From Candidatus Bathyarchaeota archaeon (GTDB lineage: Archaea; Thermoproteota; Bathyarchaeia; Bathyarchaeales; Bathycorpusculaceae): DNA of 64,000 bases. Below the pieces are notes generated by a model that saw only the letters and a program-made list of their open reading frames with translations, did no database searches and was not told where the DNA came from. The stretch is taken from positions 355,677 through 419,676 of the forward strand of contig JAOZIA010000002.1 in assembly GCA_026014585.1 (NCBI GenBank), read 5' to 3'. Position numbers and translations under genes: made by a program. Below are positions 43,984 to 45,341 of this stretch, piece after piece (the stretch's first letter is position 1; each line of letters begins with the position of its first letter).

Positions 43984-44069
43984 GGATTCACTGTAACCAT
44001 CGAAAACAAGCAACATTTTCAATAAACAAACTGAAGTTTTTGGGGAAAACTCGTTTTTTGTCAGCAAGT

Positions 44070-44081
44070 TTTTAATATTTT
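44070..44081 (+). promoter_or_regulatory. TATA box of the queT-queC operon
   Basis: TTTTTAATATTT lies 25-30 bases before TTGGCGGG at 44101, so the transcript should begin almost exactly at the first stem of the pseudoknot leader. Confidence 0.6.
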
Positions 44082-44102
44082 ATTGTAGTGCTTTGCGTTA
44101 TT

Positions 44103-44158
44103 GGCGGGTGAGTGGAATCTCCTACCCGTTCCGCCAACTAAAATAAAACCCGGGAGAT
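44103..44158 (+). promoter_or_regulatory. Candidate preQ1-like pseudoknot riboswitch leader
   Basis: Stem P1 pairs GGCGG (44103-44107) with CCGCC (44131-44135). The P1 loop contains ATCTCC (44117-44122) and ACCCG (44124-44128). After P1 comes the A-rich linker AACTAAAATAAAACC, then CGGGAGAT (44151-44158). GGAGAT can pair with ATCTCC, or CGGG with CCCG, giving an H-type pseudoknot that hides the Shine-Dalgarno region GGGAGATGGAG before the TTG at 44167. The layout copies bacterial preQ1 riboswitches, and the regulated gene is a QueT transporter. The ligand is inferred, not shown. Confidence 0.6.
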
Positions 44159-44166
44159 GGAGAAAC

Positions 44167-44688
44167 TTGCAAAATAGAGTAAAAACCAAAATCATAGCAT
44201 TTATTGCCATGTATGCTGCACTCTACGCAGCGCTTGTTGTCGTTTTAGGGGATTTATCTTTTGGACTAGTAAACATCCGCATTGCCGATGCCATGCTTGC
44301 AGTTGTGCCCTTGGTCGGTTTCGCGGGTGTTTTAGGACACACATTAGGCGTGTTTATAGGAAACGTCTTTTCCACAGTTGGATTAGTGGATTTGCTAAAC
44401 ACAATTCCATCCTTTGTCATGGCCTTTGTAGTCTATTATGTGTACAAACGGACGAGAAATGATTACTCTGTGCTGGCAACATGCATTGCGTATTCACTTG
44501 TGCTAGGCACGACAGTAGGCTGGATGCTATCTGCCGTTTTTGATATGCCGTTGTTGCCGACGATAGGATGGGTTATGGTGGGTAACCTCATTGTAACCAC
44601 GCTTATTGGGTGGCCCATGTTTAAACTTCTAAAAAGAACAGGCATATTTGAAAAATGGTTCCCAATTGAGGAGGAAAAGAAAAAGTGA
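44167..44688 (+). CDS. queT: QueT-family queuosine/archaeosine precursor transporter
   Basis: From TTG 44167 the protein is about 173 residues and begins QNRVKTKIIAFIAMYAALYAAL. The alternative TTG at 44101 would translate through the structured leader, so I reject it. Five to six membrane helices carry the QueT/ECF S-component pattern: FGLVNIRIADAMLAVVPLVG, GHTLGVFIGNVFSTVG, DLLNTIPSFVMAFVVYYVYK and a C-terminal basic/acidic tail. It probably imports a deazaguanine precursor for tRNA archaeosine. It overlaps the queC start by four bases. Confidence 0.9.
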   Translation: MQNRVKTKIIAFIAMYAALYAALVVVLGDLSFGLVNIRIADAMLAVVPLVGFAGVLGHTLGVFIGNVFSTVGLVDLLNTIPSFVMAFVVYYVYKRTRNDYSVLATCIAYSLVLGTTVGWMLSAVFDMPLLPTIGWVMVGNLIVTTLIGWPMFKLLKRTGIFEKWFPIEEEKKK

Positions 44689-45341
44689 GCACACCCAAAA
44701 AATGTGTAATAGTTCTAAGCGGTGGACCAGACTCCGCCACGGTTGCGTACTGGGCAAAAACAAAAGGATACCAGATATACCCGATAACCTTCAAGTATGG
44801 ACAAATAGCTGAAAAAGAAACCCAAGCAGCACAAAAAATCGCCAAAAGCCTAAACACCAACACTAAAATCATTGACCTAAGCAACCTAAAAGACATCTTC
44901 GGCGAAGCAACTTCCCTTGTAAACCGGGAAATCCCCCTAACAGCCGAATTCAGCAGCCCAATCATTGTTCCTTTCAGAAACGCCATTTTCCTCTCTGTTG
45001 CCGTCGCATACGCAGTCACGGTTGGAGCCAAAGAGATTTTTTATGGCGCTCAAGGTTCTGATGAACCATTTTATCCTGATTGCAGACGAGAATTCTACGA
45101 AGCCTTTGAAAAAGCAGCCAAACTGGGAACAGACGAAGACATCACAATAAAGGCGCCCTTTAGCAACATGAAAAAAGCTGAATTACTAAAAGAAGCCGCA
45201 ACTTTAGGTGTTCCCCTGCAACTTACATGGTCATGCTATCTGGACAGGGAAGCTCATTGTGGAAAATGTGAGTCCTGCGTGAACCGCAAAAAAGCATTCA
45301 AAGAAGCAGGCGTCAAAGACCCAACAGATTATGAAGCCTAA
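44685..45341 (+). CDS. queC: 7-cyano-7-deazaguanine (preQ0) synthase
   Basis: The 218-residue ATP-dependent enzyme converts carboxydeazaguanine to preQ0 for archaeosine. The P-loop is VIVLSGGPDSATVAYWA (about residues 8-24). FKYGQIAEKE, VPFRNAIFLSVAVAYA and GAQGSDEPFYPDCR are substrate-site motifs. SCYLDREAHCGKCESCVNR (about 185-203) is the zinc site. The GTG start at 44685 overlaps the queT stop (GTGA), so both are co-translated under the same leader. Confidence 0.95.
   Translation: MSTPKKCVIVLSGGPDSATVAYWAKTKGYQIYPITFKYGQIAEKETQAAQKIAKSLNTNTKIIDLSNLKDIFGEATSLVNREIPLTAEFSSPIIVPFRNAIFLSVAVAYAVTVGAKEIFYGAQGSDEPFYPDCRREFYEAFEKAAKLGTDEDITIKAPFSNMKKAELLKEAATLGVPLQLTWSCYLDREAHCGKCESCVNRKKAFKEAGVKDPTDYEA

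Follow-up and report, generated by a model that had tools for sequence, protein, structure and literature searches.

A conserved pseudoknot leader that pairs with the Shine-Dalgarno sequence before archaeal queT genes, a probable translational switch for 7-deazaguanine import and synthesis

Introduction

SAM-II riboswitches are compact H-type pseudoknots that hold the Shine-Dalgarno (SD) sequence in their second helix. Among preQ1 riboswitches, classes II and III are HLout pseudoknots; in class I, the P1 3' strand follows immediately on a specificity C, itself preceded by A or U, U6 is the first position of L1, and the ligand is contacted by A30 of L3, located just before the P2 3' strand (PMC11625349). 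For archaea, the Thermococcus fluoride riboswitch (Speed et al. 2018) is presented, as cited in PMC8241225 and PMC11549558, as native and thought to act translationally, and according to PMC8241225 no other natural riboswitch of archaea has been established by experiment. Our literature search found no description of a preQ0 riboswitch or of an archaeal preQ1-type riboswitch.

Here we analyze the leader of a queT-queC operon in a 64,000-nt stretch of bathyarchaeal DNA (the window), which is part of a 2.3-Mb genome (G000, contig C2). A preliminary description of this DNA had proposed a pseudoknot resembling preQ1 class I riboswitches. Comparative analysis suggests that the leader is probably a translational OFF switch that acts in cis on 7-deazaguanine genes and belongs to a class absent from Rfam.

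Results

The leader comprises 63 nt (44101-44163, plus strand; covariance-model match G000:C2:399777-399839) and forms a conserved pseudoknot whose parts are listed in Table 1. The sequence is as first described, with a stem GGCGG/CCGCC, an A-rich linker, and a block, CGGGAGAUGGAGA (44151-44163), immediately 5' of the queT TTG codon at 44167. Covariation in P1 and P3, together with the A-rich L3, bears out the proposed H-type pseudoknot with an A-rich third strand. The proposed back-pairing held in part: the block does pair into the loop, SD included, not as a single helix but as two, P2 and P3. The back-pairing is likewise bipartite in relatives, P2 joining CCG or CCCG to CGG or CGGG, and P3 joining CUCC(C) to a downstream SD, GG(G)AG; the corresponding P3 strands in the window are UCUCC and GGAGA. 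The single helix ATCTCC:GGAGAT was rejected, having an energy of -5.2 kcal/mol versus -10.6 for P2 plus P3 in the same evaluation and a pairing that is not kept in relatives. The base of P1 is often longer or shorter among relatives. Single-sequence folding lends no support to an unusual stability of the leader (z = -0.48, nested fold); the evidence for its structure is comparative.

Table 1. Features of the queT leader and operon (positions in the window)
Feature	Position	Strand	Evidence
TATA-like box TTTTTAATA	44069-44077	+	sequence; A+T peak in aligned loci
P1 5' strand, UUGGCGG	44101-44107	+	covariance-model match; double-sided changes in 5 of 7 P1 pairs
Loop L1 with conserved GURAG, across the P2/P3 groove	44108-44117	+	GUGA/GUAA/GUAGG in nearly all copies
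P3 5' strand, UCUCC (anti-SD)	44118-44122	+	partner-swap test; length change coordinated with SD
P2 5' strand, CCCG	44125-44128	+	CCG:CGG near-constant; adjoining position covaries
L2, UU	44129-44130	+	UU in 120 of 123 distinct copies
P1 3' strand, CCGCCAA	44131-44137	+	P1 covariation
L3, A-rich, 3' end the conserved AAANCC	44138-44150	+	aligned copies
P2 3' strand, CGGG	44151-44154	+	aligned copies
P3 3' strand and SD, GGAGA	44159-44163	+	sequence, aligned copies
queT, ECF-type transporter S component, TTG start	44167-44688	+	Pfam PF06177, 82 bits, 6e-23
queC, 7-cyano-7-deazaguanine (preQ0) synthase, GTG start overlapping queT stop	44685-45341	+	TIGR00364, 197 bits against cut-off 150; Pfam, 2e-64

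The TATA-like box lies about 29 nt upstream of P1 in the window, and across 99 aligned loci A+T content peaks at -32 to -26 from the first P1 base, reaching 96% A/T. Such a distance is the ordinary spacing between TATA box and transcription start in archaeal promoters, so the transcript would begin at P1, as had been predicted, and the RNA would be essentially the whole leader. The downstream genes overlap and match the PF06177 and TIGR00364 models, in agreement with the queT-queC operon named in the preliminary description.

From 25 distinct leaders we built a covariance model and searched with it the order, the class, and a phylum-wide sample. At 27 of the 30 nearest queT loci of the order the leader lies directly 5' of queT, and at the remaining three it precedes queC, with queT behind queC. 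The window's order gave matches in 124 of 163 genomes, its class in 179 of 257, and the phylum-wide sample in 76 of 398, 17 of these 76 being outside the class; in a second class searched, 14 of 200 genomes have the leader. Genomes with the leader usually have a single copy. With best matches at E values of about 1e-14 per genome, and no covariance-model match in 322 of the 398 sampled genomes, the leader is beyond chance. In viral contigs the pattern matched twice, each time with the motif's 3' half missing. Two divergent leaders were noted: that at L148 (G001) keeps P1 and a P3 of CUCCCU:AGGGAG and has lost P2, and that at L157 (G006) keeps the 3' half only.

The leader is tightly linked to one pathway. 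Within the order, 125 of 129 copies are 5' of queT, 122 of them at a distance of ≤150 nt and three via a queC-queT operon; the remaining four lie either at the end of a contig or upstream of a QueT-like frame. At one locus (L095, G034:C37) a QueT-like start comes after the motif but no long open frame does, which probably marks a second queT that has decayed. Among the first downstream proteins scanned outside the class, all but one score as QueT; the exception is in genome G535, where the leader is followed by an unknown 239-residue membrane protein (L217:5067-5786) and then by queC. This protein has no Pfam or NCBIfam match and is a candidate alternative 7-deazaguanine transporter. In two genomes of one genus queE is 3' of the leader, its best NCBIfam matches being to QueE models at about 1e-33, below the cut-offs. 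Apart from the G535 membrane protein, itself a neighbor of queC, all leader-linked genes are 7-deazaguanine genes.

Five of the seven P1 pairs have changed on both sides, most clearly where GGCGC/GCGCC replaces GGCGG/CCGCC; none of 500 shuffles came up to the real alignment in either paired percentage or covariation score, and the signal disappears when the partner is slid by 1-3 columns. The three pairs of the P2 core, CCG:CGG, are formed in 98/98, 97/98, and 98/98 distinct rows, and the adjoining pair covaries (C-G, U-A, A-U). Being nearly invariant, P2 shows little covariation of its own and, taken alone, is little evidence.

For P3, a partner-swap test gave 17.4 for the leaders' own strands versus 15.4 (sd 0.15) for permuted ones, a value reached in 0 of 5,000 permutations both here and with the 81 distinct P3 pairs, and its length varies in a coordinated way, CUCCC going with GGGAG in 53 of 59 cases and CUCC with GGAG in 42 of 45 (Fisher p 8e-19); the sequences being related, such tests are inflated and the permutation p-values are not true probabilities, and the anti-SD side is partly constrained by the SD. 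P3 is also wholly replaced in some distant copies, such as L200 (UUUCCGAC:GUCGGAAA), L237 (ACAUCUC:GAGAUGU), L132 (CCUCU:AGAGG), and L100 (CCACC:GGUGG), and independent replacements of this kind would be hard to obtain without base pairing. A nested hairpin in L1, proposed by RNAalifold and considered as an ON state, was rejected (partner-swap 512 of 2,000, no covariation support), a null result indicating that the partner-swap approach is not indiscriminate.

The 3' strand of P3 is the SD in most copies and stands shortly 5' of the start codon, so in the pseudoknot conformation the ribosome binding site is covered, as originally proposed. The proposal had also been tied to compensatory changes among related queT leaders, and P1 and P3 both have them. 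The loops GURAG, UU, and AAANCC are conserved as much as the helices or more.

No Rfam family matched in the window at the gathering score, and searches of the window and of the relatives' loci at E values up to 10 returned nothing credible; the Rfam models for preQ1 classes I, II, and III were silent up to the same limit on the window leader and on the relatives' loci.

QueF, the enzyme that makes preQ1, was found in none of 35 genomes (the window's own and 34 relatives), so preQ1 synthesis is not expected and preQ1 is unlikely to be the native ligand. TGT is present in 31 of the 33 genomes tested (30 of 32 relatives plus the window's). The relatives' enzyme is mostly one of 520-560 residues, and that of the window genome is arcTGT (TIGR00432, 562 bits), which inserts preQ0 into tRNA. 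Given the absence of QueF and the presence of TGT, preQ0 would be the expected free product of the pathway and the likelier ligand, which accords with the earlier suggestion that preQ0 might be sensed.

A second, compact leader, motif B, precedes queT in seven relatives that have no window-type leader there (L146, L147, L149, L150, L151, L154, and L155). Its sequence is GGUAG-UUU-CCG-UANAUAAC-CUACC-UUAAAAAACC-CGG. It has the pocket signature of preQ1 class I (AAC before the P1 3' strand, UUU after the P1 5' strand, a G-C floor), an A-rich L3, and a CGG overlapping the SD. Rfam does not call it, and in the phylum sample only four of 398 were true matches, the rest being noise, with weak matches (L212-L214) that are not 5' of queT. 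From its sequence, motif B is a candidate archaeal preQ1-I-like riboswitch. It is closer to the idea of the preliminary description, but it lies outside the window. Genome G062 has two queT paralogues, one (L166) and another (L057), of which one carries a window-type leader and the other a preQ1-I-like leader.

Further leader types occur before queT, both without an Rfam match. The third, a longer one located about 120 nt upstream of queT (L152 and L153, in G134 and G128), consists of a hairpin GGCGGG(A/U)UGAG(U/C)UCCGCC, a conserved CCGAAGGGGAAAUCAACCAGCC, and a terminal hairpin containing the SD. The fourth, also conserved (L156, L158, and L159, in G138, G129, and G130), has GUAAGC.../GCUUAC-like arms and is known from few, closely related sequences.

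Discussion

The general traits of a riboswitch are present in this 5' leader, whose structure and loops are conserved and which is attached to one pathway. We favor, at a probability of roughly 0.55, a riboswitch class that is new and native to archaea (in the sense that it has so far been found in Thermoproteota, the phylum searched by covariance model, and above all in Bathyarchaeia) and that senses preQ0, from which archaeosine is made, instead of preQ1. In this reading it would repress preQ0 import and synthesis translationally, and in some of these lineages a preQ1-I-like RNA would have the same role before queT. The mRNA would start at P1. At low ligand the SD would be free and queT-queC translated. 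The pseudoknot would be stabilized by a 7-deazaguanine base, preQ0 being the likeliest, bound between P1 and P2; in the bound state P1 would be formed, CCG would pair with CGG across P1, and the anti-SD of L1 would pair with the SD as P3. With the SD buried in P3, preQ0 import and synthesis would stop. An SD-pairing leader in Thermoproteota is also consistent with the archaeal translational element that had been suggested at the outset.

A riboswitch for another ligand, such as archaeosine base, guanine, or preQ1 or queuine salvaged from neighbors, seems unlikely, if still worth weighing. For QueT, transport of preQ1 is a prediction rather than a demonstrated activity (PMC5372724), which leaves room for such a ligand. 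Control of queC and queE, with TGT present and QueF absent, favors preQ0 instead.

Recognition of the pseudoknot as an operator by an RNA-binding protein, such as a pathway enzyme regulating its own synthesis or a dedicated repressor, with no direct metabolite binding by the RNA, is rather improbable. Protein-bound leaders, too, typically have conserved structure at the ribosome binding site, and a protein might instead be the partner of an SD-hiding pseudoknot. However, the strict conservation of the loops and the variety of genes served (queT, queC, queE) point to a common metabolite, and the operon has no evident regulator gene.

Sequestering the SD would suffice by itself for constitutive attenuation, an RNA thermometer, or an mRNA stabilizer, and the ordinary folding energy in the window would suit such a ligand-free element. 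A mere sequestering helix, however, has no need of conserved GURAG, UU, and AAANCC, nor would it explain the tight linkage to one pathway, and we regard this explanation as quite improbable.

Membership in the bacterial preQ1 class I family, the kinship originally proposed, now appears very improbable. The resemblance is real: like class I (RF00522; types I-III), the window leader is an H-type pseudoknot with an A-rich L3 and the SD in the second helix, found before queT or queuosine genes. But the ligand-contacting positions differ, since UU replaces the specificity C, GU follows the P1 5' strand in aligned copies where class I has U6, and CC stands before CGG where class I has A30. The P1 closing pair, a G-C floor in class I, is G-C in 115 of 123 distinct copies and C-G in eight. 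The silence of the Rfam models, the reversed order of loop lengths, and the absence of QueF also speak against it. A DNA operator, suggested by the inverted repeat of the P1 arms (GGCGG/CCGCC), or mere chance, is hardly credible for a leader that lies downstream of the TATA box, abuts the SD, and bears the RNA signatures of P3 covariation and coordinated length changes.

If the preQ0 riboswitch reading is correct, metabolite sensing by RNA would be part of archaeal regulation, through a widespread archaeal class linked to archaeosine. The leader would possibly be the first preQ0 sensor, and regulation of the modification of archaeal tRNA at G15 would become directly testable. Linkage to the leader also gives a pathway context to the still unproven QueT transporter and to the unknown membrane protein.

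Among known systems, the fluoride riboswitch class is common to archaea and bacteria, and the Thermococcus member differs from the window leader in its ion ligand and unrelated structure. SAM-II has the same compact pseudoknot with the SD in its second helix and differs in sequence, gene set, and loops, with no Rfam match here. Classes II (RF01054) and III (RF02680) of preQ1 riboswitch likewise regulate queT-type genes through pseudoknot formation, but with HLout folds. Motif B shares with the window leader an H-type pseudoknot before queT and a similar AAAACC-CGG third strand; unlike the window leader, it has the preQ1-I pocket signature and lacks P3. Compared with preQ1 class I itself, of about 34 nt, the window-type leader is archaeal and larger (about 55-65 nt), combines a long L1 with a 2-nt L2, and adds a helix, P3, that pairs with the SD.
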